Part shown: in pieces, positions 21,901-36,014 of the stretch | How positions within the stretch are numbered: the first letter of the stretch is position 1 | How the letters are laid out: every line of letters starts with the position of its first letter | From: Streptomyces sp. HPF1205 | GTDB lineage: Bacteria > Actinomycetota > Actinomycetes > Streptomycetales > Streptomycetaceae | Assembly: GCF_020400825.1 (NCBI RefSeq) | Contig: NZ_JAINVH010000022.1 | Span: 1 to 64,000, forward strand | Direction: 5' to 3' | Length of the DNA: 64,000 nt | Translations under genes and position numbers: made by a program | Notes under the pieces: generated by a model | Databases searched by the model: none | What the model was told of the DNA's origin: nothing | The model's input: the letters and a program-made list of their open reading frames with translations, nothing else

Positions 21901-22182
21901 ACGTCCACCGCCGGGGCCAGACAACGCACGTGATCACACCAAGGCCGCGCCGTTGCCTCAAAGGACAACACAGAGGTGACGGGTCGCCCGCCCGGCCCGG
22001 AGAGCGGCTCGTCCCCTGGCCGTCACGCGATGGAACCGGTGGAGATCGCCGCCCTGCCCGTGCGTGACGGCCGACGGGACACGAGCACGGCAGGGACGTC
22101 CGGCCTTTCCAGGCCGCGTCGGCCGGCGGTTCGGGCAGATGTGCGTGCGGCGTCGCCTCTCACGAACGGGCGGTTCCGGTGT

Positions 22183-22746: not shown

Positions 22747-22773
22747 GACCGAACAGGTAGCCGATCTGTGACA
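22747..22773 (-). promoter_or_regulatory. ECF-type promoter, copy 1 (VOC gene)
   Basis: On the minus strand TGTCACA (22773-22767) and GGTC (22750-22747) are 16 bases apart. This is one of ten such elements in the region and it points at the VOC gene. Confidence 0.7.
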
Positions 22774-23137
22774 CCGGCGGTAGCCCAAGGCGCCTGTCCG
22801 GGCACCGGTCCCGCTGCGGTGTCGGCCTTCCTCCACGGCGTGGCCGGGATCTTCCTCATGCACGTGGCCGAAGCGCACGGGCACGGCGTCCGGTGCATGA
22901 GCGGCCGATGGCCTGCCCCGGTGTGACTCGTCCGCAGGACGAGGGCCGCACCGCCTGCCGTCCGGACCGGTCACTGCGCACCAGGGCTTCGGAATTTCCT
23001 CCTCTCACGCAGCGTATCGGGTGGGCCGGTGAGCCGGAGCAGTCGACCGGTGGGACGGCAAGTGATGAAGACGGTCCCCGGGGACCAGAAGCCGCACGAG
23101 GCCGTCCAGGTCTCCGGTACTTGCTGGGGACGGTCCG
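22774..23137. other. No recognisable gene
   Basis: I see no supported coding sequence or structured element here. Open frames exist on both strands but show no family similarity or ribosome-binding site. Confidence 0.5.
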
Positions 23138-24115
23138 GGGCGGCTGCGTGGTCGGCGCCGCGAGTGCGACGCGCTCGAAGGTCTGGTCTCGGACGTGGAG
23201 GCCGGACGCAGCGCCGTACTCGTTCTGCGCCGGTGATGCCGGAATCGGGAAGTCCGCTCTACTGGATCACCTGGCGGCGCGCGCCGCAGGACACCGCATC
23301 GCCCGCGTGGCGGTAGCCGAGTCGGAGATGGAGTTCCCGTTCGCGGGGCTGTAGCAGCTGCGCGCCCCGTTCCTCGCGCGCGCCGGTTCCCTTCCGCCTC
23401 CGCAGAGGGAAGCGCTCTCCACGGCATTCGGGCTGAACACCGGACCGCCTCCGGACAGGTTCCTGGTCGATCCTGTCGTACTCGGGCTGCTGACCGACGC
23501 AGCCGCCGAGCGGCCGCTGATCTGTCTCGTGGACGACGCGCAGTGGTTCGACCGCGTCTCCGCGCAGACGCTTGCGTTCGTCGCGCGCCGCATGCTCGCC
23601 GAACCGCTGGCGCTCGTCTTCGCCTCTCGTGAGCAGCGGGGACGCGACGAGTTGGCCGGTCTGCCCGAGCCGGCGCCCGACGGCCTCGGTGACACCGACG
23701 CCCGCGGCTTACGGACGCGGCGGCCAGGGCAGGGCTGCCCGGCCCGCCAGGGACCTCGACGCCGCGGCACTGCTCATCGCGGAGATCGACCGGCTCCAGG
23801 AGGCGGTCGGCAGCAGCTCTGCGCCGTACGGCACGGTCACACTCACCGCCGTGCGGGGACGCGTACGCGAAGCCGTCCCGCTGATCGAGCGCGGCATGGA
23901 GGATGTCCCGAACCGCGGTGAGGGCATCGGCATGGCCATCGCCCAACGGGCCCGAGCGGTTCTTCACAACGGTCCGGGCAGGTACGGGGAGGCATTCGAC
24001 GCGGCCCCTACGGCGAGCGCGCATCCGCAGGACCTGGTCGCGACCCACCGGGGACTGGCCGAACGTCGAGCGGTGCCGCGGCGTGCGATACCGCCGCTGC
24101 GACACCGCGGCTGGA
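23138..24115 (+). pseudogene. Broken LuxR-family ATPase regulator
   Basis: Remains of a large ATP-binding LuxR regulator. RECDALEGLVSDVEAGRSAV leads, after a one-base frameshift near 23230, into Walker A (GDAGIGKSALLDHL). The frame then meets TAG at 23352-23354 where relatives have Gln in FAGLQQL. Beyond it the Walker B (LICLVDDAQWFD) is still legible. A further frame change and deletion near 23740 lead to part of the helical repeat domain (GEGIGMAIAQRARAVLHNG). The C-terminal HTH is missing. At least two frame changes, one nonsense codon and a truncation make it inactive. Confidence 0.85.
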
Positions 24116-25198
24116 TCACCGGCGCAGGTCCGGCTCAACGTACTCGAAAGTCGGTCCGGCGGTCGTGCCGTCGCCTTCCGGCATCTCCATCAGGGCCTGG
24201 GCCTGCGACTTCAACGCGTACATCGTGCCGGTCGCGGCCGCAAGCCTGTCCGGGCTGCCGTTGAACGTCTCCTCCAGCAGCTGGAGCAGCCCGCAGTAGG
24301 TGCGGTTGAACTCCTCCTGCGCGGATCGGATCGAGCTCCCCTCCGGGTGGTCCGACACCAGCGGGTTGGGGCGCATCGGACGGACGCCGGACAGGTCGAG
24401 CGTGACCGGCTCCCCCGTGGGGCCGGACTGCGGTGTGTCACCGCGCAGGTAGCGCCGGCCCAGCGTGAGTTCCCGGAACCGGTAGTAGTGCGAGACCTCG
24501 TCGCGCTCGGGGTGGAAGATGTCCCGGTCGCCGTCCCACACCTCGCCCCGCGCTGTACCCTCGCCTTGCTCGACGATCTCCTCCAGTGCCGCCAGGGCAG
24601 AGCCGAGATCGGTGACCGGAGCCAGCTGCCCGCCCGTGTGCCGGAAGGGGCCGCCGGTGACCTGGCGCGCCGGGTCTCCGCAGAAGACCGCGGCTTCGCC
24701 GAGTTCGGCGCACAGGTGGTGCAGTCCGTCCTCGATGGCGTCGTAGAACTGACCGATCGTCTCGTAATCGTCGCTTTCGGCCGATGCGCCGGGCGGGGCC
24801 GGCTGCTCGAGGCGAAGGAACATCTCCAGCGCCTCGGGCCCGAACGGTAGGAGGGACAGGCGCAGGGAGCGGTTGCCGTGGGGCAGGGTGCGGGGGTGCT
24901 GTTGCAGCAACTCGGTTGTGTCGAGACGCGGTCGGCCGCCGACCGCATTCAGGAGGTTCGCCGCCAGGGCCAGATGAATCATCTCTTCCACGAAGACGCC
25001 ACCGACTGCCTCGACGGCGTCCGGGTTCCGCTGAGGATCGAGCGAGTAGAGCGCGCAGAGATAGGGCGGCAGCGTGGCGTGTTCGAGTTCCAGCGCCCAC
25101 TGGAGGTGCTGTCGCAGGCTTTCGAGCGTCGCTATCCGTACCGTCGAGGGTGCCTCGGTGGCCTCAAGCTGTTCCTGGTGATTCACAAGTGTTCCCAC
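24116..25198 (-). CDS. Ferritin-like protein related to VioB-type iminophenyl-pyruvate dimer synthase domain
   Basis: A 360-residue protein whose N-terminal part (LQWALELEHATLPPYLCALY and VFVEEMIHLALAANLLNAVGG) matches the ferritin-like domain PF12902 found in VioB/RebD-type enzymes. The E and ExxH residues of both helices, candidate iron ligands, are visible. VioB proteins are much larger (about 1000 residues), so this is a stand-alone version. No partner tryptophan oxidase or other bisindole gene is nearby. A GTG start at 25198 is used; an in-frame GTG at 25186 is also possible. A TGTCACA-N16-GGTC promoter lies about 160 bases upstream. Confidence 0.8.
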   Translation of the reverse strand: MGTLVNHQEQLEATEAPSTVRIATLESLRQHLQWALELEHATLPPYLCALYSLDPQRNPDAVEAVGGVFVEEMIHLALAANLLNAVGGRPRLDTTELLQQHPRTLPHGNRSLRLSLLPFGPEALEMFLRLEQPAPPGASAESDDYETIGQFYDAIEDGLHHLCAELGEAAVFCGDPARQVTGGPFRHTGGQLAPVTDLGSALAALEEIVEQGEGTARGEVWDGDRDIFHPERDEVSHYYRFRELTLGRRYLRGDTPQSGPTGEPVTLDLSGVRPMRPNPLVSDHPEGSSIRSAQEEFNRTYCGLLQLLEETFNGSPDRLAAATGTMYALKSQAQALMEMPEGDGTTAGPTFEYVEPDLRR

Positions 25199-25355
25199 TT
25201 TCGGTGTTCGGACATGGCCCTATGCCCCGTCGGTGTCGGGGCGGCCGCCGTGGTGTCTGAGGTCTCGACCCGCGGCAGTGCTGCCGCGGGTCGACGAGCG
25301 CAGGGCGGGCGCGGGGAGGTACGGGGCCAGCCGGGCCCGAGCGTCTGTCAGTGAT

Positions 25356-25382
25356 GACCAGGCAGCCGTCGGATCTGTGACA
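25356..25382 (-). promoter_or_regulatory. ECF-type promoter, copy 2 (VioB-like ferritin gene)
   Basis: Minus-strand TGTCACA (25382-25376), 16 bases, GGTC (25359-25356). The spacer begins GATCCG as in the copy upstream of the cupin gene. Confidence 0.7.
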
Positions 25383-25431
25383 ACAGAAGTGAGCCTCTTC
25401 CCTCGGCGGGCTGTCCGGCGTCGGGCAATCC

Positions 25432-25551
25432 GTGTACTTCGTTGTGAAGCTGCTGCAGGAGGAGCAGGTGCGCATGTCGCCGGTCCCCCACTCCATCGTG
25501 CGTGCCGCGCCGTTCTTCGAGGCGGTCGCGGAACACCTGAGCACCGTGTGA
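25432..25551 (+). pseudogene. C-terminal fragment of an NmrA-like NAD(P)-binding protein
   Basis: Forty codons ending in TGA encode KLLQEEQVRMSPVPHSIVRA and FFEAVAEHL. This matches the KxxxEExxxxSxxPxTIVRxxxFFE block of atypical SDR/NmrA proteins (complete length about 250-290 residues). No N-terminal nucleotide-binding motif is found upstream, so this is a remnant. Confidence 0.55.
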
Positions 25552-25568
25552 CAGCCCCCGCGGCCACC

Positions 25569-25595
25569 TGTCACAGGAAGCGGAGCCGTCCTGTC
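25569..25595 (+). promoter_or_regulatory. ECF-type promoter, copy 3 (OsmC gene)
   Basis: Plus-strand TGTCACA (25569-25575), 16 bases, TGTC (25592-25595), 33 bases before the OsmC start. It is the only copy with TGTC instead of GGTC at the second element. Confidence 0.65.
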
Positions 25596-25628
25596 TCAGT
25601 GGTGAAGCGCATACCGGAGGAGAAGATC

Positions 25629-26030
25629 ATGACCTCACGCACAGTAGCCGTGAGCGAGGGCCGGGGTCTCGCTCGGTCCATCGCGGTCGGCACACACATA
25701 CTGACCGCGGACGAACCCCGGCCCATCAGCGGCGATACCGGTCCGACACCCGGTGAGCTGCTCCTGGCGGCCCTCGGGGCGTGCACGTCCATGGCGGTAC
25801 GCGCGTCCGCGGACCGGCACGACTGGCCGCTCGATCAGGTCGACGTCACCGTGCAGTTCGACGCGCACGGACGGATCACCAAGGAGGTCCGCCTCACGGG
25901 CGAGCTGGACCCCGACCACATCAAGGGCCTGGTCTCGGTGGCCGAGCGCTGCCCCGTCCACCGGTTGCTGGCTGAGCAGACCCCGATCGTGACCGTGCCC
26001 ACCGTCGTCACGCCTCGACCTGCTGAGTGA
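25629..26030 (+). CDS. OsmC-family peroxide-reductase-like protein
   Basis: A 133-residue OsmC/Ohr-fold protein. The two redox cysteines of the family are Cys52 (LGACTSMAVR) and Cys108 (ERCPVHRLL). Family members reduce organic hydroperoxides with dithiols; short general OsmC proteins often have unknown substrates. The ATG is preceded by GGAGGAGAAG. The promoter directly upstream belongs to the TGTCACA-N16 group, fitting a stress response. Confidence 0.92.
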   Translation: MTSRTVAVSEGRGLARSIAVGTHILTADEPRPISGDTGPTPGELLLAALGACTSMAVRASADRHDWPLDQVDVTVQFDAHGRITKEVRLTGELDPDHIKGLVSVAERCPVHRLLAEQTPIVTVPTVVTPRPAE

Positions 26031-26181
26031 CGACGAGGCGAGCGCGGTACTGCGTTCCCTCGCTCCTGCCTACTTCTTCGACTGCTGGGGGCGGGAGGAG
26101 GAGTTCGGTCCCGCACGCGGCCCGCTGCGCAGTGGTCACCTTCCTGTCCGCGACAAGCGATCACACCGTGTGAGTCTGTGA
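26014..26181 (+). pseudogene. Short fragment resembling an alpha/beta hydrolase
   Basis: Overlapping the end of the OsmC gene in another frame is LLSDDEASAVLRSLAPAYFF followed by DCWGREEEFGPAR, then a stop. The phrase resembles the lid region of proline-iminopeptidase-type hydrolases. No catalytic Ser or His is present. The assignment is weak; it may be chance. Confidence 0.3.
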
Positions 26182-26200
26182 ACCGACCCGTGCCGCCGGG

Positions 26201-26554
26201 TCACCCGTGTGTGAGGATCACCGTGACGGACACGGTCACGGCCACGGTGACCAGGGCCATCGCAACCAGTACGCCTCGAAGCCGGCGCGTGAAGCGCAGG
26301 CGGTGATCCTCTTCCGCCGCGCTGACCCTGTCCGCGATGTGCTCTGTCACCATGCAGGCGACGTAGATCTGTTCCTCGAGGTACCAGCGCTCGATGTCCG
26401 CCTTCTGATCGGCGGTCAGCCCGGGCTCGCGACCGGTGAAATCGCCCACGCGGCGACGTGCCGCCCGCAGATGGGCCTGTCGGTACAGGAAGCTCTCGAT
26501 GTCGGTCAGGCCCCGGGAGGCCTCCTGGTGTATGTCCACGGTGTCTCGCTCCAT
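26201..26554 (-). CDS. Small protein with C-terminal membrane anchor
   Basis: A protein of about 117 residues (139 if the ATG at 26620 is used). It begins near MERDTVDIHQEASRGLTDIE, a pattern I recognise from a Streptomyces family of small proteins of unknown function. The middle is charged and helical (LTADQKADIERWYLEEQIY), and the last 25 residues are one hydrophobic segment. I do not recognise a function. Neither start has a strong ribosome-binding site. Confidence 0.65.
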   Translation of the reverse strand: MERDTVDIHQEASRGLTDIESFLYRQAHLRAARRRVGDFTGREPGLTADQKADIERWYLEEQIYVACMVTEHIADRVSAAEEDHRLRFTRRLRGVLVAMALVTVAVTVSVTVILTHG

Positions 26555-26837
26555 CGGGATGACGGGGAACGGGTCTTCCCGGTCTTGGTGATATCGGTTC
26601 AAGGGACCGGGGAACGCCACACGGAGATCGCCGCCGTCCTCGCCTCGGTGCGGCCAACGTCCGGACGCTTGTGAGCCTGGCCCGGAAGCACCTGGCGGCC
26701 GAGCGGCGCGAGCGGGTCACCCCTGCCGAGCACCGGCGGCTGATGGAGGGTCCCTCTCAGCCGCCCGCACGGGCGATGTCACGGCGCTCGAAGACCTCCT
26801 CGTGGCGTCGCCGGCCGGCTGAGCGCGCGGCGCCGGC

Positions 26838-27578
26838 TCAGCGGGTCTGGTCGGTCGGCCTGATCAGTATCTCGTTGACGGCGACGTGCGCAGGCTGGGT
26901 GACCGCGTAGACGACGGCGGCGGCCACGTCCTCCGGCTGGAGGGTGCGCATGGCCGCGGCCATCTCCCTGGCCTTCGCCCGCATGGCCGGGTCAGTGCTG
27001 TGGGTGGTCAGCTCGGTCGACACGAAGCCGGGTTCGATGACGACGACCCGCACACCGTGCTCCGTGACCTCCTGGCGCAGCGCCTCGGAGAAGGCCGTGA
27101 CACCGAACTTGGTGGCCGCGTAGACACCGGCGCCGGCCGAGGCGGAACGCCCCGAGGTCGAGGAGACCTGCACCACCGCGCCTTTGGTGTCGAGCAGGTG
27201 GGGCAGGGCAGCGTGGACCGCGTACATGGAGCCGAGCAGATTGATCGCGACCATGTGCGTCCAGTCGGAGATGTCCGCGGTCAGGATCGCGCCGTTGAGC
27301 ATGACGCCCGCGTTGTTCACCAGGACGTCCAAGCGGCCGAAACGCGTGACGGTCGCCGCGACCGCGTCCCTTACGGACTGCGGGTCCGCGACGTTCAGTT
27401 CCAGGGCCAGAACATCGCCCCCCGGGGCTTCGTCGGCCAGCGATCTCAGCCGGTCGGTGCGGCGTGCCCCGGCTGCCACCGACGCCCCGGCCCGTGCCAG
27501 CGCCAGCGCCGTGGCCCTGCCGATGCCCGAGGACGCCCCGGTGACCAGGACGGCCTTGCCTTCCAGTGTGCTGCTCAC
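26838..27578 (-). CDS. Short-chain dehydrogenase/reductase (SDR)
   Basis: A 246-residue classical SDR. It has the cofactor motif TGASSGIG, the NNAG motif, a catalytic Ser (VSSTSGR) and YAATK as the YxxxK pair. An Arg pair soon after the first strand (ARRTDR) suggests NADP(H). The GTG start at 27578 follows AAGAGGCAGAAC, a good site. The substrate is unknown; relatives include serine/3-hydroxy-acid dehydrogenase-like enzymes. Unlike its neighbours it has no TGTCACA-type promoter. Confidence 0.9.
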   Translation of the reverse strand: MSSTLEGKAVLVTGASSGIGRATALALARAGASVAAGARRTDRLRSLADEAPGGDVLALELNVADPQSVRDAVAATVTRFGRLDVLVNNAGVMLNGAILTADISDWTHMVAINLLGSMYAVHAALPHLLDTKGAVVQVSSTSGRSASAGAGVYAATKFGVTAFSEALRQEVTEHGVRVVVIEPGFVSTELTTHSTDPAMRAKAREMAAAMRTLQPEDVAAAVVYAVTQPAHVAVNEILIRPTDQTR

Positions 27579-27707
27579 GTTCTGCCTCTTTCGCTTTGGT
27601 GCGAGGGTCATCGGATACGCGGAAGGCGCCTGCGATCAGCACACATCACTGCCCGCGCGGTACAGCGGTCTCACTGGTCTCAAGGCCAGTGCCGACCGGC
27701 GACGCCG

Positions 27708-28103
27708 TCAGGATTCGGGTGCGCCGAGGGCAGCGGGGAACCAGAGGTCGACGACGTCCGCCTCGTCCCTGCGGGCGGTGAAGGCGGCGATTCCCTTCTT
27801 GTCCGCGTGCTGCGGTGGTAGTCCCGCCACCACCGGGTGGTCGCCGCGCGCCGTACCGTCGTCGGAAGGTTGCTGGAAGAACTCGGCGTTGACGGCCAGA
27901 TAGTACGACCAGTGCTGCGGAAGCTCAGCCTCGGGGAAGATCGCGTCGACCGGGCACACCGGCTCGCACGCGTGGCAGTCAACGCATGCCACGGGGTCGA
28001 TGTAGAGGGTCCGCTCGCCTTCGTGGATGCAGTCCTCCGGGCATTCCACCAGGCATGCCTTGTCCTTGACGTCGACACATGGCTGCGCGATGACGTATGT
28101 CAT
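27708..28103 (-). CDS. fdxA: Seven-iron ferredoxin with C-terminal extension
   Basis: A 131-residue ferredoxin. Cys9, Cys17 and Cys50 fit the 3Fe-4S cluster, and Cys21, Cys40, Cys43 and Cys46 the 4Fe-4S cluster; the start MTYVIAQPCVDVKDKAC is diagnostic of FdxA. Typical FdxA is about 105-110 residues; here some 25 extra residues (after VVAGLPPQHADKKG) form a unique tail. It delivers single electrons, for example to P450s or reductases. A TGTCACA-type promoter lies about 70 bases upstream. Confidence 0.93.
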   Translation of the reverse strand: MTYVIAQPCVDVKDKACLVECPEDCIHEGERTLYIDPVACVDCHACEPVCPVDAIFPEAELPQHWSYYLAVNAEFFQQPSDDGTARGDHPVVAGLPPQHADKKGIAAFTARRDEADVVDLWFPAALGAPES

Positions 28104-28171
28104 TCTTCCTCCCTTTCCCCTTCTCGGCAGAGCTCCGCGGGCCGCCGGTGCGATGTACTGGCCGACTGTTA

Positions 28172-28198
28172 GACCGGGCGGCTCCCGATGTTGTGACG
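28172..28198 (-). promoter_or_regulatory. ECF-type promoter, copy 4 (ferredoxin gene)
   Basis: Minus-strand CGTCACA (28198-28192), 16 bases, GGTC (28175-28172). One mismatch to the TGTCACA consensus. The rest of the 28104-28489 gap shows no gene. Confidence 0.65.
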
Positions 28199-28453
28199 CG
28201 TGCCCTGGAGGGACGCGGCGGCATCGTCACCGACGCGCGCCTGCGTATCTCGGCGCCCGTCGTCGACGCGGCGAGCGGCGTCGCAGGCGCCTGCCACCCT
28301 TCACCACGGGGGGCGTGCGTCGAACAGTGTGCAATGCCCCGCGGCCGACCGGTCGCGGCCGCGCGCAAGCATGGTGTGGCCAGGACGCCGTCCTCACGCA
28401 CCCCGCCGGGCGGCGACACGCCCCGGGGCGATCACGCGAGTAAGTGCGACGGC

Positions 28454-28480
28454 GGTCACAAACTCGCCGCGTGCCCGGTC
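28454..28480 (+). promoter_or_regulatory. ECF-type promoter, copy 5 (ABM gene)
   Basis: Plus-strand GGTCACA (28454-28460), 16 bases, GGTC (28477-28480). The ATG of the following gene is only 10 bases beyond, so the transcript would be leaderless or nearly so. Confidence 0.6.
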
Positions 28481-28489
28481 ACAGTGGGC

Positions 28490-28843
28490 ATGAATCACTC
28501 GCTGGAATCGAAGACCGCTGTCGACGGACCGGTCATCGTCATCAAGACCTACACCGTGCCGACGGCCGAAGCCGACTACTTCACCGAGGCGTACCAGGAA
28601 AACGCCCGGATCATGTCGACCCAGTCCGGCTTCCTCCGCTCCCGTCTGCACCGTCCCCTGGCAGACGCCCCGGAGACGCGTTTCGTCCACGTCGCGGAGT
28701 GGACGTCGGGCACCGCGCTCGACAAAGCCATGGGAAACCCCGAGTGGCATGCCTCGCTGCAACGCCTGTTCGACGACCCGGGCCTGCACATCACCTCGGA
28801 GCCTGCCGGCTACCGAGTCGTTGTCGAACTCCGTCCTTCCTGA
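28490..28843 (+). CDS. Antibiotic-biosynthesis-monooxygenase (ABM) domain protein
   Basis: A 117-residue dimeric alpha/beta barrel-type protein of the ABM/IsdG family. The pattern VIVIKTYTVPTAEADYFTEA ... GFLRSRLHR ... FVHVAEW is characteristic. Members oxygenate polyketides or degrade heme without a conventional cofactor, but many have no known substrate. No Shine-Dalgarno sequence precedes the ATG, in agreement with the very close promoter. Confidence 0.85.
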   Translation: MNHSLESKTAVDGPVIVIKTYTVPTAEADYFTEAYQENARIMSTQSGFLRSRLHRPLADAPETRFVHVAEWTSGTALDKAMGNPEWHASLQRLFDDPGLHITSEPAGYRVVVELRPS

Positions 28844-28908
28844 CAAGAGTGGCTGCCGCCGGCAGCGTCGGGCCAGTGCGGGCCTACCCATGCTCGCAGG
28901 AACAGACC

Positions 28909-29124
28909 TTGCCCACTGAGTCCGCAGACACGGGCGCTGCCGACCGCCGCACGTTCTTCAAGCGCGCGTCGGCAGCCGCCGCGGTTCCGACGACCGGCAC
29001 GCTGCTCGGCGGCTTCCCGGGTACCGCTGCCGCAGCCGGCTCGTCCCGCCTTCCGGACTATGCGCCGGGCCCGCCCGCCTCGGTCGGGCCCGCGCTCAAC
29101 GCCGGCGGCTGCTTCGTCGGGTGA
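28909..29124 (+). pseudogene. Truncated Tat-exported metallo-hydrolase-like protein
   Basis: A TTG start after AGGAAC opens 71 codons. They encode a twin-arginine signal (DRRTFFKRASAAAA), a hydrophobic stretch, and YAPGPPASVGPALNAGG followed by FVG and a stop. The last phrase resembles the start of exported MBL-fold hydrolases (YAPxPPSxxGPALNxxGYFVG), which continue for about 250 more residues. The body is gone, so this is a 3'-truncated remnant. Confidence 0.6.
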
Positions 29125-29246
29125 TCACCTCGCCCTCGCGGCGGGCACGTCGGAGAGCGGGCTGCGGCGATCCACCCGCGCGGTCGAGCCGGTGTTGAAG
29201 GGGCGGGATGCGCGATGAGGCGCCCCGCCCCTTCGGCGGTTCCAGA

Positions 29247-29720
29247 TCAGTCGGCGGTTCCCATCGACGCCTGCTCGATGACCTCGGCGACGTCACCCGG
29301 ATGGGAGACGCTCACCGCGTGCGAGGAGCGGACCTCCACCGTGTGGGCGTGGGCGCGCTCGGCCATGAAGCGCTGGGCCTGCGGCGGGATGTTGCGGTCC
29401 TGCGTAGCCACCAGGGCCCATGACGGGATGGTCTTCCAGGCGGGCTCACCGGCGCCGTCGTGCAGAGCGGCGTTGGTGACCGGCCGCTGGGAGACGGCCA
29501 TCAGGTCGGAGACGTCCCGGGGTACGTCGGCGGCGAACTGGTCGTGGAACTCGGCCGGGACGATGGTCAGATCGGCGTCTTTCGAACCGTCCGGCAGCGT
29601 GACCGGAACGGCGTGCAGGGTGTCCCCAAGCGTGCTGCCGGGGAACTTCGACGACAGATCGAACGCGCTCTCGCCCTTGTCGGGCAGGAAGCCCGCGACG
29701 TATACGAGCGCAGAGCCGAA
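29247..29720 (-). pseudogene. 5'-truncated alpha/beta hydrolase
   Basis: An open frame without a proper start encodes LVYVAGFLPDKGES, then PRDVSDLMAVSQRPVT, WALVATQDRNIPP (catalytic Asp region) and SSHAVSVSHPGDVAEVIEQA (His). This is the C-terminal half of a family of about 230-280-residue alpha/beta hydrolases; the nucleophile Ser region is missing. The promoter TGTCACA-N16-GGTC stands immediately upstream (29738-29764), as if a deletion removed the first half of the gene but left the promoter. Confidence 0.75.
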
Positions 29721-29737
29721 TGGCCCTCATGTTTTAT

Positions 29738-29764
29738 GACCGAGTATCACCAGAAAGTGTGACA
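29738..29764 (-). promoter_or_regulatory. ECF-type promoter, copy 6 (hydrolase remnant)
   Basis: Minus-strand TGTCACA (29764-29758), 16 bases, GGTC (29741-29738). It now drives only a gene remnant. Confidence 0.65.
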
Positions 29765-29855
29765 ACAAGAAGCTTTGAGGGTCTTCTGCGGCGAGGCCGG
29801 GCGGCCTGCGCGCCACGGACGGGCCGGCCGGCCCGGGCCCGTGCCGGCGCGGGGG

Positions 29856-31346
29856 TCATGGCAGTGGTTCGGGTGGCTTGGGCGGCTTCCGTGCGGTGAG
29901 GATCTGCCGCCGTCGCCGGTCGAGTGGCTCGTGGATCTCGGTGTAGCCGCCGTTGGGTAGCCGTACGATGATGCCGGTCTCGCGCCCGTGCAGGACCATG
30001 TCGCGGTCACGCTGCTGCAGGCCCAGCGCGAGCCGTCGCGTCACGGTGTGGACCACGGCCGGCACGGTGAAGAGGCCGATGCGAACCGCCCAGGTCACCG
30101 CGTTGACGGAGACGTGGAAATGCGTGGCGATGATGTCGTTGGCGCCCCCTGTGAGCGTCAGCAGGTACACGCTCAGCCATGCGGTGCCCAGCGCGGTGCG
30201 CACCGGGTGGTCGCGCGGTCTGTCCAGCAGGTGGTGCTCGCGGCGGTCGCCGGTGACCCGGGTCTCGATGAAGGGATAGGCGCCCAGCGCGAGGAAGAGG
30301 CCGACCGCGGCCAGCAGCGGCACGAGCACGTCCAGGACCAGCGTGTGGCCCCCCACGGTGACCTCCCAGCCGGGCATGACGCGGAGCAACCCGTCGAGGG
30401 CGCCCATGTACCAGTCCGGCTGCGATCCGGACGAGACCTGGTCGGGGCGGTAAGGGCCGTACTCCCAGATGGGGTTGATCTGCGCCACCGCCGCCATGGT
30501 GAAGATCACCCCGGCGACGATGAAGAGGTAGCCCGCCGACTTCACGGCGTACACCCGCAGCGGCAGGCCGACGACGTTGCGTTCGGTGCGTCCGGGAGCG
30601 GCCCACTGGGTGTGCCGGTGCCGCAGGCGCAGAGCCAGGTGGGCGGCGAGCAGTGCGGTGATCACGGCGGGGAGCAGCAGGACGTGGAGGGTGGCGAAGC
30701 GGGCCTCCAGGTCGTGGCCGGGGAATGCGCCGCCGAAGAGGAGGTACGACAGGTACGTGCCGACGACGGGGACCGCCAGCAAGGTGCCCTCGACGACCGC
30801 CAGGCCGGTGCCGGACAGCAGGTCGCCCGGCAGGTCGTAGCCCGTCAGGCCCTCCACCATGCCTACGACCAGCACGAGGAAGTCCAGCACCCAGGTCAGC
30901 TCGCGCGGCCGGCGGAAGGCCCCGGTGAAGAACACGCGCATCAGGTGCGCGAGGACGGCGGCGAGGAAGATCAGCGCCGCCCAGTGGTGGGCCTGGCGCA
31001 TCAGCAGACCGCCGCGTACCTCGAACGAGATGTGCATCGTCGAGTCGAACGCCCCGGACACCCTCTGCCCGTCCAGCGGCGCGTAACTGCCGTGGTACAC
31101 CGTCGGTTGCGCCGAGGGGTGGAAGAAGAAGGACAGGTAGACGCCGGTGACGACGAGGACGAGGAAGCTGTAGAGGGCGATCTCCCACAGCATGAAGGAC
31201 CAGTGGTCCGGGACCGCCCTGCGCAGAGCGGCCCTCGACAGCCCGCCCGTTCCCGTGCGCGTCCGCGCCCATCGCGCGAGCCGCTCCCCCGCCGGCTCCC
31301 GCCATGCCCGGACCGGCTCGCTCTCCTCGCCCATCGCCTCACTCAT
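29856..31346 (-). CDS. Orphan cytochrome b (QcrB-type) subunit
   Basis: A 496-residue integral membrane protein resembling the cytochrome b subunit of the actinobacterial bc1 complex. The N-terminal heme helices carry the expected histidines (RQAHHWAALIF, LHVLLLPAVIT, AAHLALRLRHRH), the Qo-site GYDLPGD and NPIWEYGPYRP segments are present, and several hydrophobic helices follow. No qcrA, qcrC or oxidase genes are adjacent, so it is a stand-alone paralogue that may replace the main QcrB under special conditions. The promoter TGTCACA-N16-GGTC is about 50 bases upstream. Confidence 0.9.
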   Translation of the reverse strand: MSEAMGEESEPVRAWREPAGERLARWARTRTGTGGLSRAALRRAVPDHWSFMLWEIALYSFLVLVVTGVYLSFFFHPSAQPTVYHGSYAPLDGQRVSGAFDSTMHISFEVRGGLLMRQAHHWAALIFLAAVLAHLMRVFFTGAFRRPRELTWVLDFLVLVVGMVEGLTGYDLPGDLLSGTGLAVVEGTLLAVPVVGTYLSYLLFGGAFPGHDLEARFATLHVLLLPAVITALLAAHLALRLRHRHTQWAAPGRTERNVVGLPLRVYAVKSAGYLFIVAGVIFTMAAVAQINPIWEYGPYRPDQVSSGSQPDWYMGALDGLLRVMPGWEVTVGGHTLVLDVLVPLLAAVGLFLALGAYPFIETRVTGDRREHHLLDRPRDHPVRTALGTAWLSVYLLTLTGGANDIIATHFHVSVNAVTWAVRIGLFTVPAVVHTVTRRLALGLQQRDRDMVLHGRETGIIVRLPNGGYTEIHEPLDRRRRQILTARKPPKPPEPLP

Positions 31347-31394
31347 TCCTGGATCGCCCTCCGCACGCCGCGACCGAACGGGTCACACAGGGAA

Positions 31395-31421
31395 GACCGG
31401 GCAGGAACACATGGTGTGACA
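31395..31421 (-). promoter_or_regulatory. ECF-type promoter, copy 7 (cytochrome b gene)
   Basis: Minus-strand TGTCACA (31421-31415), 16 bases, GGTC (31398-31395). Confidence 0.7.
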
Positions 31422-31483
31422 ATTAGTGATGCGTCGCACAGTTTTTCATGATCGACGCGCTGCCCGGACGCACGGAAATCGAC

Positions 31484-31510
31484 CGTCACGACTCTCCCGG
31501 CTGTCTGGTC
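31484..31510 (+). promoter_or_regulatory. ECF-type promoter, copy 8 (coiled-coil gene pair)
   Basis: Plus-strand CGTCACG (31484-31490), 16 bases, GGTC (31507-31510), 59 bases before the small coiled-coil gene. Two mismatches in the first element make it the weakest of the ten. Confidence 0.5.
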
Positions 31511-31569
31511 ATTCAGGTAGGGGGGCCTGCCCCCAGCCGCCGACCGGACCGACCCCAGGGAAGAGCCAC

Positions 31570-31734
31570 ATGTTCCTCCACCCCGACCAGTGTTCCGATC
31601 CCGCCGCCGGTGCCCTGCTGGAAGCCGAAGCCGCCCTGCTGGAAGCCCGGCTGCGGATGCTTCGGGAGGCGCTCGGCAGTGTCGACGCACGCATCGCCGC
31701 GGTTGCCGAGGAACTGCGCCGACGGAACCGTTAG
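31570..31734 (+). CDS. Small coiled-coil protein
   Basis: A 54-residue protein that is almost one amphipathic helix (LEAEAALLEARLRMLREALG, VDARIAAVAEELRRR). The ATG follows AGGGAAG at good distance. I do not recognise the family. It precedes, by 76 bases, a gene that also begins with a coiled coil, so the two products may pair. Confidence 0.65.
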   Translation: MFLHPDQCSDPAAGALLEAEAALLEARLRMLREALGSVDARIAAVAEELRRRNR

Positions 31735-31810
31735 GTCGCCCTCCCACGACACCGACAGCCGTTGCATTCCGAAGGAACGGTGGCAACAATGGTGCAGTCG
31801 AGAGGAACAC

Positions 31811-32308
31811 ATGGTCTCTGCTGCCAATCGGCCACCGAACACGGCGCATGACATCGAGGTCACAGCCGGGGACCTCCAGGAGGAGCTGGCCCGCCTGGAG
31901 ATCCAGAAGCAGGCCCTGGAGCGGGAGTTGTCCGCGGTTGTCGCCCATCTGAGTTCCGTCCAACGCGTCCTGGGTACGCTCCAGGCCGTGCTCCCCTCCC
32001 AGGAGCCGAAGTCGGCGCCTGTCGCACCGCCGGTACCGGCAGCTCCCGGCGAGAAGCCGTCCCTCAAGGCTGCGGACAGCGCCTCGGCCGGGGACGACGA
32101 GCAGAGGACGTACGGCAGGCTCACCGAGCAGATCCTGGAGTTCTTCGCCGGGACGGGCGGCGCCGACGTACGCGCGCGGGACGTGGCCGCGGCACTCGGC
32201 CGGGACACGGACAACGGCAGCATCAACGCGGTCCGCAGCACCCTGGACCGGCTCGTCGGCACCTCCCGGATCCGGCGCAGCGGGCGCGGGCTCTACCGCG
32301 CCGGGTAG
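31811..32308 (+). CDS. Coiled-coil plus winged-helix DNA-binding protein
   Basis: A 165-residue protein. Residues about 15-60 form a leucine-rich coiled coil (LQEELARLEIQKQALEREL), a Pro/Ala linker follows, and residues about 100-165 look like a winged helix (LTEQILEFFAGTG, VRARDVAAALGRD, VRSTLDRLVGTSRIRRSGRG). The ATG is preceded by GAGAGGAAC. A DNA-binding regulator is likely, possibly together with the small coiled-coil protein just upstream. No specific family name is recognised. Confidence 0.75.
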   Translation: MVSAANRPPNTAHDIEVTAGDLQEELARLEIQKQALERELSAVVAHLSSVQRVLGTLQAVLPSQEPKSAPVAPPVPAAPGEKPSLKAADSASAGDDEQRTYGRLTEQILEFFAGTGGADVRARDVAAALGRDTDNGSINAVRSTLDRLVGTSRIRRSGRGLYRAG

Positions 32309-32374
32309 CCCTGTGCCGCGTGCCCGTACCGGGTGGATCGCACCGTGTGATCCCGGCCGCCCGCGCAGGCCCGT

Positions 32375-32530
32375 TCACGGGGTGGGGGCGTCCGCCGGCA
32401 GTTCTTCGTGGCGGGGCTCCCCGTGGGTGACGAAGGCTTCGCGGGGCCGTTGCACCAAGACCAGCGAGGCGTGCCGTTCGGCATCCGCGTACCGCTCGGG
32501 GCGCGAGTGGCCGCGAGGCGCTGCCACCGA
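32375..32530 (-). pseudogene. Possible C-terminal gene remnant
   Basis: About 50 codons ending in TGA encode ERYADAERHASLVLVQRPRE and AFVTHGEPRHEELPADAP with coding-like codon use, but no start, promoter or family match is found. It may be the tail of a deleted gene. Confidence 0.25.
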
Positions 32531-32579
32531 TCTTCCTGACAGCCCTGGCACCGCCTCGCGGCCGATGCGGATGCTCCGG

Positions 32580-33368
32580 CTAGTCAGTGGCGACCCGGGT
32601 GGGGTCGGTGGGCCTCGGCAGCAGGAAACCGTCGATGTACAGATCGACCCTCTCGTTGTAGAAAGCGGTCAGCCCGGCGATGCGGTTGGCGTGGATGGTC
32701 GGGAAGTCGTACATCCAGGCGATGTCCTCGTGGGAAGCGGTGTCACCGTCGAACGACCAGTAGCTGCTCGTCGTCCCCTTGTACGGGCATCGGGTCACCG
32801 TGTCCGAGTGCCGCAGCCGCGTCCAGTCGATGTTCGTGCGGTTGAGGTAGTAGCGGGTCGGCAGGCCGGTCTCGAACAGCTTCACGCAATCGGCAGCCTC
32901 CGCCAGCACGACACCGTCCAACTCGACTCGGACGCTGCTGCTCGAACGCAGGGCGTCCACACGGGAGTAGGGGCTCCGAGGATGGACGAAGACCGGCTCG
33001 TCCTCCTCGAACCAGTAGTCCAGTGCCTCCCACTCGAAGCGCACGGTGCCGCGCAGTGGTCCCGGGGCGCCCTCGCCCCAGACCCACGCAGCCCCCGCAC
33101 GGACCTCCGGACCGACCTGCAGGGTGTGACGGTGCGCGGGACCGGCACCGAGTTGCTCACTGTGCTCGTCGTCGTGGAGCACGCCGTCCACCAGGTCCTC
33201 GACCGGAATGCTGAACTGGGGATAGGCCTGCCATTCCCACACGTACAGCGCGCGGCGCGTGTCGAAGACCACGCGCCCGCCGACCATTCCCCGGATACGG
33301 CGGGGAACGGGCTCGACGTGCCCGATCGGGACGATGAGGCTGGGGTGCAGGACGCTTTCGGTTGCCAT
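32580..33368 (-). CDS. DUF427 protein
   Basis: A 262-residue protein with two DUF427 (PF04248) units. VRVELDGVVLAEAADCVKLF and TRYYLNRTNIDWTRL lead to TRCPYKGTTSSYWSFDG, the hallmark CPYKG motif with W/Y pattern; the N-terminal half contains a degenerate version (GRVVFDTRRALYVWEW). The ATG at 33368 follows AAAGGTG. The fold is a small beta-barrel of unknown biochemical role. Confidence 0.88.
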   Translation of the reverse strand: MATESVLHPSLIVPIGHVEPVPRRIRGMVGGRVVFDTRRALYVWEWQAYPQFSIPVEDLVDGVLHDDEHSEQLGAGPAHRHTLQVGPEVRAGAAWVWGEGAPGPLRGTVRFEWEALDYWFEEDEPVFVHPRSPYSRVDALRSSSSVRVELDGVVLAEAADCVKLFETGLPTRYYLNRTNIDWTRLRHSDTVTRCPYKGTTSSYWSFDGDTASHEDIAWMYDFPTIHANRIAGLTAFYNERVDLYIDGFLLPRPTDPTRVATD

Positions 33369-33581
33369 GGTGATCACCTTTGTGTTCGCTGATGGTGGCT
33401 CGCCGGGCCTGGTGGCCGCCTGCGGCGCAGAGGGGCGCGAGGCCGCCGGCGCGTCGGTCGCCTGCGGCACACCGCGGCAGACCGCCGCGCCTTCCCGTCT
33501 GCCGCATGGGCGGACACACGGCATGTTGACGAAGCCGCCGTTGGTTTCCCGGTTCGCCGGTCACCAGACCGCCGAATGACA

Positions 33582-33623
33582 CCGGTCCGGGACCGGTGAG
33601 CGCCGGTCCGGGACCGGTGAGCG
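33582..33623. repeat. 21-base tandem duplication
   Basis: CCGGTCCGGGACCGGTGAGCG occurs twice in direct succession, minus the last base it is followed by a partial third copy. Each unit holds a near-palindrome CCGGTCCGGGACCGG. It lies downstream of the cupin gene and could act in termination. The rest of 33369-33679 shows no gene. Confidence 0.6.
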
Positions 33624-33679
33624 CCGGTGTGGCACCGCCCGCCGCCCTCGGTCGGCGGACGGTGCCATAACCGCGAGGG

Positions 33680-34147
33680 TCAGGCGCTGGGCCGCGGGGC
33701 ACGCAGGTGTGCCCGCCTCCGCAGTTCCTCCTCGTCGACGAGTTCGAGCATGGGCTTGCCGGGGGCGCACATCATCGTGACGACGAACTCGGTCCTCTCG
33801 TCGGAGAGGGCGTTGCCGTCCTGGTAATGGATGGCATCGCCGCCGGGCTCCCAAAAGGTGCCACCGGCCTCGACGATGCGCTCGGGCTCGCCCTCGAGTT
33901 CGAAGCGCACCGCGCCCTTGATGACATAGCCGAACGCCGGGCCGGAGTGGCGGTGCGGTGGGGTGCCGGGGTCACCGGGCTCCCACTCGACGTGGATGGT
34001 CATCGCCGAGGCGCCCTCCGGAACAGTGATCGGGGAGGCGTCCTGAAGCATCCTCGCCGCCCGGGTCCAACTCGGCCCGTCCCCGGCGACGGTACCGTGA
34101 CCGTGCCCCACGTGGCCGTCGTGGGCGTGCTGTGAATTCTCCGACAC
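33680..34147 (-). CDS. Cupin-domain protein with His-rich N-terminus
   Basis: A 155-residue single cupin. Motif 1 is PPHRHSGPAFGYVIKGAVRFEL and motif 2 is GDAIHYQDGN, giving metal-binding His residues. The N-terminus HAHDGHVGHGHG is unusually His-rich and may bind extra metal. The GTG at 34147 is preferred because GGAAGG lies upstream; an ATG at 34210 is the alternative. Function is unknown. A TGTCACA-N16-GGTC promoter stands about 100 bases upstream. Confidence 0.85.
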   Translation of the reverse strand: MSENSQHAHDGHVGHGHGTVAGDGPSWTRAARMLQDASPITVPEGASAMTIHVEWEPGDPGTPPHRHSGPAFGYVIKGAVRFELEGEPERIVEAGGTFWEPGGDAIHYQDGNALSDERTEFVVTMMCAPGKPMLELVDEEELRRRAHLRAPRPSA

Positions 34148-34242
34148 TGAGTCGCACCTTCCGTGATCCCACCGTGTTCCGGCACCGTCTTCGGCTGCCA
34201 CGGTGGTCATGTGGCCGGTCGTGAAGACCGCTCGACCCTCCT

Positions 34243-34269
34243 GACCGGACGTCCGGCGGATCTGTGACA
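34243..34269 (-). promoter_or_regulatory. ECF-type promoter, copy 9 (cupin gene)
   Basis: Minus-strand TGTCACA (34269-34263), 16 bases, GGTC (34246-34243). The downstream flank GATCCGCCGG is shared with copy 10 in CATCCGCCG. Confidence 0.7.
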
Positions 34270-34376
34270 CGTGCGACGCCCGGCTGCCCTCCGGCATCCG
34301 CAGTCGGCGGTGTCGCGCGGTGTCGCCGGAACGGGACCCGTGCGGTAGGGCCGCCGTCGGAGCCTGTGACACCCGG

Positions 34377-35018
34377 TCAGTGAGGCATGAGCAGCATCAC
34401 GGCCGTTCCCAGCGCCATGGCCCCGTCACGCAGGTGGCCGTACGGATCGTGCGTCGCGGCTCGGCGCCGCGCGGTGTCCGCGGCGGGCGTGGGATGGGGC
34501 ATCGGGTTCAACCACCTTACGCCGCAGGCAAGGAGGTACGCGGTCAGCAGACCGGTGACCACGTCGGCCGTCGCCGGGACGCTCGCAGCGTGATCAACAG
34601 TTGCAAAGTGGTGCGCACCCGGCCCGCTTCCGGCCGGGGTCTCGTGGGATGGGACCGCCCACATGTGGGGAGTCCACAGCATCCAGGCCATCGCCGCCAT
34701 ACCGGCCGCAGGTGGCAGTCGGTCGGCCATCGCCGCTGACTCCCCGGTGCGGCGGTGGACCGCGGTCAGGGGGAACCAAAGAGCGCCTGCCATGAGGAGG
34801 ACCGTCGTGGTCGGGCCCGAGAGCGATCGGCCCAGGCCCCAAGGCATCGCTGCCATGACAACGGCCGTGGCGAAGTGCAGGAGGTGGTCCACCCGGTCAC
34901 GCCGCCCCATCCCCGGCGTCCGGGCACCGTGCAGCAATGCGTGCAACGCCGCTGACGCGAAGAGCACCGTCAGCATGCAGCGCACGACGTCGACGGGAGT
35001 ATGCACAGGGCAGGTCAT
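34377..35018 (-). CDS. DUF5134 membrane protein
   Basis: A 213-residue protein with about five hydrophobic segments (for example VLLMAGALWFPLTAV and GLLTAYLLACGVRWLNP), and conserved-looking His residues in helices (HALLHG, HLLHFATAVVMAAMPWG). The pattern matches the actinobacterial DUF5134 family of unknown function. No TGTCACA-type promoter is visible upstream. Confidence 0.75.
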   Translation of the reverse strand: MTCPVHTPVDVVRCMLTVLFASAALHALLHGARTPGMGRRDRVDHLLHFATAVVMAAMPWGLGRSLSGPTTTVLLMAGALWFPLTAVHRRTGESAAMADRLPPAAGMAAMAWMLWTPHMWAVPSHETPAGSGPGAHHFATVDHAASVPATADVVTGLLTAYLLACGVRWLNPMPHPTPAADTARRRAATHDPYGHLRDGAMALGTAVMLLMPH

Positions 35019-35435
35019 GTGGTGGGCAGCGCGGCCACGCCATCGTCGGATTCGCGGAACGCGTCCGTAGGCGTCTCGTCCGACATCGTGCGCACCTTCC
35101 CCGGTCCATCACCGCTCACGGACCTGACCGACCGGCTCCCGGACTACCACCACTGGGAGGACAGATGTGACGGCTTCTTGCGCGGTGCGGCCCCGCCTGC
35201 GAGCGGGTATCGATCCTGCCCGGCGGGCGCCACGGCGGCGCCCACCGCCGCCCTCCGCACCCTGGGTAGCCGTCCACGCGCCCCGGGGCCGCTGCCGGGA
35301 CGCCCTCCGTCGAAGGCGAACTCCTCGAATAGCTACCCGCCGGCCCTGCGAAGCGCCGGGGGCACGGGGACGCTTCGTGGAGGGGAACAGCACGCGCGCA
35401 CCCGTACCGCAAGGACGACGAGATGCTGCCGGCAC
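35019..35435. other. No supported gene
   Basis: A GTG at 35167 has a fine upstream GGGAGGA, but its frame yields only an Arg/Pro-rich sequence that runs on into the TetR gene, so I do not call it. Nothing else is recognised. Confidence 0.4.
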
Positions 35436-35702
35436 TCAGGCGGCGTTGTCCGTCGCCTCCGACTCGCGCGCCGCACTCCGCCGCATCGCGCGGCGCTCCC
35501 CTTCGGTTGTGCCACCCCAGATCCCCTCCACCGGCCCGACATCGATGGCCCACGCCAAACACTGCCTCGTCACAGGGCAATGGCTGCAGACGACCTTCGC
35601 CTCGTCCGTCTGCAGCACTGCCATACCGCTGTTGACGCCGCCTATCGGGAAGAAGAGATCAGGGTCTTCGCGTAGGCAGAGACCGCGTACGCGCCAGTCC
35701 AT
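35436..35702 (-). CDS. WhiB-family iron-sulfur regulator
   Basis: An 88-residue WhiB-like protein. The four cluster ligands are Cys9, Cys39, Cys42 and Cys48 (C-x29-CSHC-x5-C), followed by the beta-turn GIWGGTTEGERR and a basic tail for DNA contact. The ATG has a near-perfect AGGAGGTG site. WhiB proteins bind a [4Fe-4S] cluster, sense redox or NO, and work with the principal sigma factor. A TGTCACA-N16-GGTC promoter lies about 100 bases upstream. Confidence 0.94.
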   Translation of the reverse strand: MDWRVRGLCLREDPDLFFPIGGVNSGMAVLQTDEAKVVCSHCPVTRQCLAWAIDVGPVEGIWGGTTEGERRAMRRSAARESEATDNAA

Positions 35703-35799
35703 AGGACACCTCCTGCGTGCGGCACGGATACCGCTTCGCCGTGTGGGGAAGCGAGAAGAAGGCGGTGGGTGGGTGCATGACCCGCGCTTCACCCTGAAA

Positions 35800-35826
35800 G
35801 ACCGCGCGGTCGGCGGATGTGTGACA
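35800..35826 (-). promoter_or_regulatory. ECF-type promoter, copy 10 (whiB-like gene)
   Basis: Minus-strand TGTCACA (35826-35820), 16 bases, GGTC (35803-35800). The remainder of the 35703-36014 gap shows no gene. Confidence 0.7.
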
Positions 35827-36014
35827 CCGAACCGCGGTGGCCGCTTCGGAACGGACCCGGCCGCCCACTGCCCTGGACTCCGGCAGGAAATCCCCCCAAA
35901 GGCCGTTACTCTTTTCGCCACCGCCTATCGCGTTCTGGGCAGTGCTGTCGAGGCCGAGGACGTCGTCCAGGACGGCGATGCCCACGGCGGCGGACACTTT
36001 GCGGAACCGTCGCC

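Follow-up and report, generated by a model that had tools for sequence, protein, structure and literature searches.

Ten elements of the form TGTCACA-N16-GGTC, some of them imperfect, were found in the window (the whole stretch of 64,000 nucleotides that was analysed). The motif, the islands that carry it, its co-occurrence with an ECF41-type sigma factor (here A) and the −10 columns of the sigma proteins argue that these elements are probably the promoters of one many-promoter ECF41 regulon, read by A with altered −10 specificity. The ECF41 family of sigma factors has been described as widespread, and in the published analysis one neighbouring target gene or operon was assigned to each factor (Wecke 2012, PMC3426412, excerpted text), a view with which a many-promoter regulon probably contrasts. 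RNA polymerase carrying A would read all elements as one regulon, region 4 of A reading TGTCACA and region 2 reading [G/T]GTC in place of the usual CGTC. The regulon would combine the usual ECF41 targets (carboxymuconolactone decarboxylase, oxidoreductase and epimerase) with an alternative redox set (NDH-2, fumarate-reductase-like flavoprotein, cytochrome b, ferredoxin, WhiB, OsmC, VOC and cupins), and the signal would probably be sensed by the C-terminal SnoaL-like domain of A. Overall, the original prediction, made from the window sequence, was supported.

Motif search of the window and the printed sequence placed an element at each of the ten predicted positions (Table 1). As predicted, TGTCACA was perfect in seven (22747, 25356, 25569, 29738, 31395, 34243 and 35800), GGTC was present in nine, the spacer measured 16 bases in all ten and every element faced its gene; the −35 sequence was off by one base at 28172 and 28454 and by two at 31484, and the −10 sequence by one base at 25569, which carries TGTC. 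The predicted distance of 10–160 bases to the gene start compares with 9–157 bases for the nine readable genes, the tenth element (29738) preceding a broken hydrolase gene. Between positions 22000 and 36500, k = 16 gave six occurrences of TGTCACA-N(k)-GGTC, and the 17 other spacings from 8 to 25 gave one in total. A Pfam scan of the reading frame holding the larger coiled-coil protein (31811-32308) gave no match.

Table 1. Elements, genes and gene scars in the window, and the sigma gene A on another contig
Feature	Coordinates	Strand	Evidence or remark
Element before VOC gene	22747..22773	-	perfect match; same gene and element in 3/3 genomes with the gene
VOC/glyoxalase-family protein	22183..22638	-	PF00903 1.9e-11
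Element before VioB-like ferritin-like gene	25356..25382	-	perfect; 3/3 genomes
Ferritin-like (VioB-type) protein	24116..25198	-	PF12902 1.7e-63
95-bp scar of NAD-epimerase gene (the one ahead of sigma A in relative G005)	25434..25528		90.5% identity to G005:14225-14319
Element TGTCACA-N16-TGTC before OsmC gene	25569..25595	+	G015 ortholog also with element
OsmC-like protein (organic hydroperoxide type)	25629..26030	+	PF02566 3.1e-16
Element CGTCACA-N16-GGTC before ferredoxin gene	28172..28198	-	ortholog with element in 4/4 genomes
Ferredoxin	27708..28103	-	PF00037 2.8e-07
Element GGTCACA-N16-GGTC before ABM gene	28454..28480	+	motif search
Antibiotic-biosynthesis-monooxygenase-type (ABM) protein	28490..28843	+	PF03992 5.4e-12
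Element before broken alpha/beta-hydrolase gene	29738..29764	-	perfect
Alpha/beta-hydrolase remnant (open frame 29247-29501)	29196..29711	-	PF12697 3e-08; 91% identity to G015 hydrolase gene region
Element before cytochrome b gene	31395..31421	-	perfect; ortholog with element in 5/7 genomes
Stand-alone cytochrome b (QcrB/PetB type)	29856..31346	-	PF13631 1.2e-50
Element CGTCACG-N16-GGTC before coiled-coil pair	31484..31510	+	TGTCACG-N16-GGTC before ortholog in G005 and G015
Two small proteins, coiled-coil by appearance	31570..32308 (31570-31734, 31811-32308)	+	sequence read
Element before cupin gene	34243..34269	-	perfect; ortholog with element in 5/5 genomes, two as CGTCACA
Cupin	33680..34147	-	PF07883 7.4e-10
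Element before WhiB gene	35800..35826	-	perfect; 5/7 genomes, two as CGTCACA
WhiB-family regulator	35436..35702	-	PF02467 6.4e-24
68-bp scar of B-type ECF41 sigma gene	35910..35977	+	TIGR02957 match to positions 9-30
Sigma A, own ortholog of the island ECF41 sigma	C127:57534-58478		contig other than the window's

A strict search of the strain's own genome (8.4 Mb) returned ten perfect copies, six in the window cluster and four on contig C133, each preceding a gene (one of them broken) of a kind known from related islands; the reversed pattern returned 0 copies. With the first base left free, 26 copies were obtained (1 with the reversed control), eight of them in the cluster, where the copy rate outside the two clusters predicts 0.022 (Poisson p about 1e-18). 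In this genome-wide search, which had been proposed with the original prediction, the perfect copies lay in two clusters, and the set is not confined to the predicted 13 kb. A loose motif (3 mismatches) occurred 131 times in the window against 181 expected; since this is no enrichment, the loose motif is uninformative, and it is the strict motif that discriminates. CGTC-type elements numbered five in the genome, with none on contigs C103 or C133. The window elements have the −35 sequence TGTCACA and the 16 ± 1 base spacer of ECF41-dependent promoters; in the eight segments read, the window included, TGTCACA-N16 was followed by GGTC 66 times, TGTC 14 times, AGTC once and the CGTC of such promoters never, and the 17 other TGTCACA-GGTC spacings together gave 7. 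Outside the search pattern, the base before GGTC was mostly a pyrimidine at the 66 exact sites (C in 55, T in 10), the bases right after GGTC were A/T-rich and an A stood 11 bases downstream in 35 of them, a start-site-like signal that would be expected if transcription began from the elements.

Six related genomes contained such islands, with the same promoters ahead of orthologous genes; with a slightly relaxed pattern, the element preceded the orthologs of the flavoprotein and of NDH-2 in 7/7 genomes each and that of CMD in 3/3. Across nine gene families, pairwise identity of orthologous promoters was 0.98 at −35, 0.95 at −10, 0.54 in the spacer and 0.36 upstream, figures that start from motif-found sites and are therefore biased toward the motif. 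The predicted clustered redox/stress regulon was supported in that the promoters precede orthologous redox genes in seven genomes; it extends beyond 13 kb and includes one broken gene. The COE/ECF41 locus type is recognised by a single COE target adjoining the sigma gene, and many targets were found here. In relative G005 the element is followed by an epimerase gene and then directly by A, a classical ECF41 pair. Dispersed elements in relative G025 numbered 18, spread over 16 stretches: 8/18 had a called gene start on the same strand within reach (CMD, NmrA-/SDR-like, A-like sigma and others; one overlaps), 6/18 lay inside a called gene (one in both counts) and 5/18 fell under neither description.

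The relatives' islands encode A or an A-like protein, sigma A lying inside the island in four of six relatives, and five of the six islands also encode two sigma paralogues: B, mostly truncated, and C, a degenerate protein that bears a SnoaL domain and is apparently DNA-blind. Laboratory truncation of ECF41 factors reportedly makes them 20–120 times more active, B being truncated at about the same place, and in Microbacterium a free SnoaL-like protein is said to adjoin the sigma gene. In the window, the 68-bp scar of B has 91% identity to G015:21204-21138, inside the B gene that adjoins WhiB in that genome, so that the scar beside WhiB occupies the place of B in G015. An ortholog of C was not found in the strain's own genome; a sigma on contig C67 was rejected as one, its identity being only 37% (137 bits); with a score of 269 bits to TIGR02957 (the curated family model that we take to stand for ECF41), it is an ordinary ECF41-like sigma. 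The arrangement in the window strain would best be explained by retention of the targets, loss of B and C, and placement of A elsewhere. It is unlikely that the regulon is a decaying relic here, with elements that date back to an ancestor whose island held the sigma genes and that are no longer in use: scars of the B sigma, the epimerase and a large LAL-type regulator, the broken hydrolase and the missing C would fit such decay, but nine of the ten elements still stand before readable genes, their sequence was kept although the flanks diverged, and an intact A persists.

The likely counterpart of the sigma factor that had been predicted to be encoded elsewhere is the strain's own ortholog of the island ECF41 sigma on contig C127. 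It scored 509 bits, whereas no other own protein in the stretches read exceeded 182, and searching the whole genome at 1e-60 returned A as the single match. A passed TIGR02957 (C127:57558-58382, 343 bits against a cut-off of 323.25) and contained sigma regions 2 and 4 (PF04542 2.9e-12, PF08281 3.4e-14). Pfam gave no SnoaL match in A at 0.01; a profile of A and four relatives aligned with SigJ into its SnoaL-like C-terminal domain, which was counted as presence of that domain. Within 2 kb upstream of A no element was found in the strain's own genome. A sigma-like gene near the second cluster (C133:70994-72229) was rejected as the reader (28–36 bits to A and B).

Among 160 genomes of the family, at least six copies occurred in 11/24 with A and 0/136 without (outside the genus, 4/15 with A and 0/110 without), and at least five in 7/9 with A and 0/26 without among the 35 genomes of the genus, which are included in the family sample, the thresholds of five and six having been picked after the counts were known. 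Expanded cases had 6–27 perfect copies per genome, and G071, picked for its distant sigma, had 20 copies and encodes an A of 67% identity. Streptomyces spiroverticillatus and S. hokutonensis, which also encode A, have 17 and 9 perfect copies, respectively. Thirteen of the 24 family genomes with A had five copies or fewer, so the presence of A does not imply a large regulon. We regard it as quite improbable that the promoters, though real and of ECF41 type, are read here by another of the strain's own ECF41 paralogues: nine of its sigma genes scored 177–349 bits to TIGR02957, two above the cut-off, and A lies distant from the island with no nearby motif of its own, but A alone is close to the island sigmas, copy number follows A over the 160 genomes, and the other gene above the cut-off (on contig C136) has a perfect CGTC element, the usual ECF41 type, located about 280 bases ahead of the stretch that matched the model. 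It is highly improbable that the repeated element serves a conventional transcription factor as operator and is no promoter: a bipartite 27-bp site could be an operator, but this one is non-palindromic, faces its gene in 10/10 window cases, has a 16-base gap and a start-site-like signal downstream, tracks an ECF41 sigma, and agrees at −35 and GTC with the published ECF41 promoter (PMC3426412, excerpted text). The LitR/LitS light regulon was set aside, with no lit/crt genes recognised among the scanned island genes and no promoter sequence for comparison in the published excerpts.

The predicted change in second-element preference was supported: GGTC or TGTC stands at nearly all loci of the close relatives of A, while most of the more distant ECF41 loci with an element have CGTC. 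The −10 consensus is not absolute, since TGTT or CGTC is found in the pair published for B. licheniformis and R. sphaeroides (PMC3426412, excerpted text). The two most discriminating sigma columns fell in the −10-reading region. Position 91 was D or N in 50 sigma proteins whose motif was untied: D91 was paired with C in 14 and A in 1, and N91 with G in 25, T in 10 and C in none. Five of the 25 N91-G rows are island sigmas whose G was assigned from the islands themselves, and the four ties that were left out include L084, which has a distant CGTC. L096 and L098 have neither D nor N at 91, yet carry GGTC, and the D/N91 rule has only three independent pairs behind it that lie on well-supported branches (sign test p 0.25). 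By residue count, position 91 appears to correspond to N92 of sigma-H, which contacts the −11 base pair (PMC6411747, excerpted text), and we infer a residue basis for the −10 change.

A wider reading of these sequences is possible, though doubtful. By replacements on a single helix face (Asp to Asn at 91, Arg to Gln/Thr at 94), an ECF41 branch may have come to read keto bases (G, T) at −10 where it had read amino bases (C, A), and may then have grown from one target to a redox regulon run by an A/B/C circuit. A would sense; B, a natural truncation driven by a regulon promoter, would amplify; C, likewise regulon-driven, its DNA-reading parts decayed and its SnoaL domain intact, would be a trans-acting brake or ligand sensor; the window strain would have collapsed to A alone.

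A conserved many-promoter ECF41 regulon would give the family a measurable physiological readout in redox and respiratory genes, and the natural series of sigma factors with one-base −10 changes would offer a direct test of ECF promoter choice. The regulon may also reveal how a regulator in trans is acquired by a factor that has no anti-sigma.

The novelty originally claimed for a broad clustered ECF41 regulon is weakened by the ECF41 factor RpoE10 of Azospirillum, reported to regulate lateral flagella (PMC12826043, citing passage) and hence to control more than one neighbouring gene; many-target ECF41 factors are thus not wholly unprecedented, and the RpoE10 targets in that passage are unlike those of the A regulon. 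Titles and abstract openings yielded no earlier report naming a many-target GGTC ECF41 regulon, and prior mention is possible. ECF56 SigG1 of Streptomyces tsukubaensis (7qh5; PMC7730460) likewise combines sigma domains with a SnoaL-like extension (TM 0.73/0.70), and differs in its lower identity (22%) and in belonging to another ECF group. The predicted fold of the A ortholog L069 (pLDDT 81, pTM 0.73) matches SigJ of M. tuberculosis (5xe7) along the whole chain (TM 0.73/0.79); at the positions of N and Q in A, SigJ carries D and R, and would therefore read CGTC on the D/N91 rule. With the COE/ECF41 locus, as described in the excerpted text (PMC3426412), the A regulon shares the TGTCACA −35 sequence, the 16-base spacer, the GTC core, the SnoaL-like C-terminal extension, and carboxymuconolactone decarboxylase and epimerase targets; it differs in the first −10 base (G or T here, C there), in having many promoters where that locus has a single target gene or operon, and in the truncated and degenerate paralogues of most islands.

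All ten TGTCACA-N16-GGTC-type elements (TGTCACA as -35, GGTC as -10) of the original prediction were found in the window exactly at the predicted positions. All ten have the predicted orientation toward a gene or remnant. Nine are each 9–157 bases from a readable gene, assigned with Pfam as VOC, VioB-like ferritin, OsmC, ferredoxin, ABM, cytochrome b, a coiled-coil-like small protein (no Pfam match), cupin and WhiB; the tenth faces a broken alpha/beta hydrolase. The own genome (8,406,792 bases, 187 contigs) contained ten perfect copies, six in the window and four on contig C133, placed before an epimerase homologue, a fumarate-reductase-like flavoprotein, an NDH-2-like dehydrogenase and a carboxymuconolactone decarboxylase (CMD); the reversed-pattern control gave zero copies across the same genome. 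With the first base free, 26 copies were counted in the genome, and eight lay in the 13-kb cluster versus 0.022 expected. With three mismatches allowed, the window held 131 copies versus 181 expected; as this loose motif is not enriched, only the strict motif is informative. In eight segments, window included, 66 copies had a spacing of 16 bases versus 7 summed over the remaining 17 values between 8 and 25, and the published ECF41 consensus TGTCACA-N16-CGTC (PMC3426412) was absent; its five copies in the own genome all lie off the window contig and C133. A logo of the 66 exact sites displayed three features outside the search pattern: C or T before GGTC (65/66), A/T-rich bases directly after it, and an A 11 bases past it (35/66), which looks like a start-site signal.

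Among 35 genomes of the genus, perfect copies numbered 6–27 in seven (own included) and 0–3 in the remaining 28. Islands of six relatives were compared for elements before orthologous genes, the element pattern being slightly relaxed, with homology re-checked and families assigned by Pfam (see table). A CGTCACA variant precedes cytochrome b, WhiB and cupin in G008 and G025. Identity between orthologous promoters of nine gene families was 0.98 for the -35, 0.95 for the -10, 0.54 for the spacer and 0.36 for the upstream flank, figures biased in the motif's favour because sites were picked by motif.

Features located in the window and compared loci, and genomes with an element before the ortholog
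Feature	Location	Genomes
Ten TGTCACA-N16-GGTC-type elements	window 22747-35826	
Further perfect TGTCACA without GGTC at 16 bases	window 25527-25553 (-), 34345-34371 (-)	
95-bp epimerase gene piece	window 25434-25528	
68-bp sigma B piece	window 35910-35977	
Pieces of large LAL-type regulator gene	window 23125-24064	
Short Tat-signal-like remnant (RRTFFKR)	window 28945-29124	
Own sigma A ortholog	C127:57534-58478	
Five TGTCACA/G-N16-CGTC elements in 20 kb	L109 3908-15700	
SnoaL-bearing ECF41-sigma relatives near A-type genes	L080:10885-11280, L083:10891-11310, L074:12294-12662, L076:3152-3829, L078:11051-11728, L067-L069, L081	
Flavoprotein		7/7
NDH-2		7/7
Cytochrome b		5/7
WhiB		5/7
Epimerase		5/6
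Cupin		5/5
Degenerate sigma C		5/5
Ferredoxin		4/4
PAS/SpoIIE phosphatase		4/4
An OsmC protein		4/4
VOC		3/3
Ferritin-like protein		3/3
CMD		3/3
Sigma B		4/5

The candidate reader of the elements is an ECF41-type sigma factor (A). A full-length gene for it (69–76% identical) is part of the island in G002, G005, G013 and G015, four of the six relatives; G008 and G025 have a more divergent island copy (57–59%) and encode their closest A (68–74%) elsewhere in the genome. The own ortholog scored 509 bits versus 182 for the next-best own protein in the stretches read, was the single match at 1e-60 in a search of the own genome and clears the curated TIGR02957 cut-off; for L069, a close ortholog, the fold prediction agrees with SigJ along the whole chain, SnoaL-like part included. 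With thresholds chosen once counts had been seen, at least five copies were present in 7/9 genus genomes with A versus 0/26 without (p 5e-6), at least six in 11/24 versus 0/136 (p 8e-11) in a family sample of 160 that includes the 35 genus genomes, and six or more in 4/15 versus 0/110 (p 1.4e-4) outside the genus. Of 14 named genomes selected because their sigma is distant, one (G071) carried 20 copies and turned out to encode an A at 67% identity, three had A-type proteins at 57–61% and 2–5 copies, and the last ten had 0–4 copies. Since 13 of the 24 family genomes with A carry five copies or fewer, a large regulon requires A, but A alone does not bring one about. Zero elements were found in the 2 kb upstream of the own A gene, which counts against A as reader.

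Scanning named genomes with A as query yielded 80 loci, in which the -10 preference was followed. The 28 loci with a sigma at least 54% identical to A had GGTC or TGTC endings, except L084 (one CGTC, >8 kb from the sigma gene), L068 (one AGTC) and L082 (no element); the 52 at 38–50% had CGTC (17), TGTC (6), GGTC (3; L092, L096, L098), AGTC (1) or none (25). Among the columns compared between G-type and C-type sigmas, positions 94 and 91 differ most. D91 pairs with C (14) or A (1), whereas N91 occurs with G in 25 rows (five being island sigmas that take their G label from the islands), with T in 10 and zero times with C; the count draws on 84 rows, leaving out 26 without motif, four tied N91 rows (three G/T, one C/T) and four motif-bearing rows with another residue (T91: two C, one G; S91: one G). 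The label switches four times on the tree, three times forced by well-supported branches, and all three independent pairs on such branches agree with the D/N91 rule (p 0.25), too few for significance. In the sigma-H open complex N92 touches the -11 base pair (PMC6411747); by our own count from W81 and N88 named there, and by alignment with SigJ, position 91 would correspond to this residue, and Asp may favour amino and Asn keto bases. Five ECF41-like sigmas outside the A clade (L121, L128, L129, L133, L136) carry N91 and R94 at loci with TGTC, not CGTC. In L109 (Paractinoplanes maris), the five CGTC elements occur together with a SnoaL-like protein of 132 aa and three paralogous sigmas, perhaps a separate expansion retaining the canonical -10.

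Two scars lie in the window island: the B piece, 91% identical to G015 and beside WhiB, which is B's place there, and a piece of the epimerase gene that stands before A in G005. The own genome yielded no ortholog of C. Given these scars and the missing C, loss of the island's own copies probably explains why A is encoded elsewhere, and decay may extend beyond what the sequences reveal. The LAL-type pieces (85–87% to G005 and G015) are further decay.

Two further sigma paralogues, B and C, occur in the islands of G002, G008, G013, G015 and G025. B stops just within the SnoaL part in four of the five, and is full length in G015. The five C proteins have an alignment gap across the helix that reads the -10, and their SnoaL part is retained. 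Pfam detected no region 4 in the G013 C protein; region 4 is absent in 225-aa Nonomuraea forms and barely exceeds the Pfam cut-off in the C of L081 (26.3 versus 25.7 bits). Because the decay of region 4 varies in extent, and L081 C still clears the cut-off, C can be called only putatively DNA-blind. Relatives of C near A-type sigmas elsewhere measure 122–139 aa (SnoaL-like; Microbacterium, Paractinoplanes; assigned from the C profile alone, no Pfam match), 225 aa (Nonomuraea) and 288–330 aa (Streptomyces). The tabulated relatives include free SnoaL-like proteins at one extreme and degenerate sigmas of full length at the other, with DNA-reading parts decayed or missing. For the predicted fold of C from L076 (pTM 0.59), Foldseek ranked SigJ and SigG1 first, although overall superposition on them was poor (TM ≤0.41), and NTF2-like proteins next.

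According to Wecke and colleagues (PMC3426412), truncation in the SnoaL part of ECF41 made the Bacillus protein (at residue 204) about 20-fold and the Rhodobacter protein (at residue 206) about 120-fold more active, and complete removal abolished activity; B is estimated to end near these positions. From truncated B, degenerate C and the elements before both, an amplifier-and-brake circuit is proposed. Literature searches at the level of titles and abstract starts, with few subscription papers covered, named no earlier many-target GGTC ECF41 regulon; PMC12826043, PMC8999054, PMC8103513, PMC9205884, PMC11256431 and PMC12705666 were also consulted. For comparison, the ECF41 sigma factor of S. 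meliloti is described with a single target (PMC6180224).
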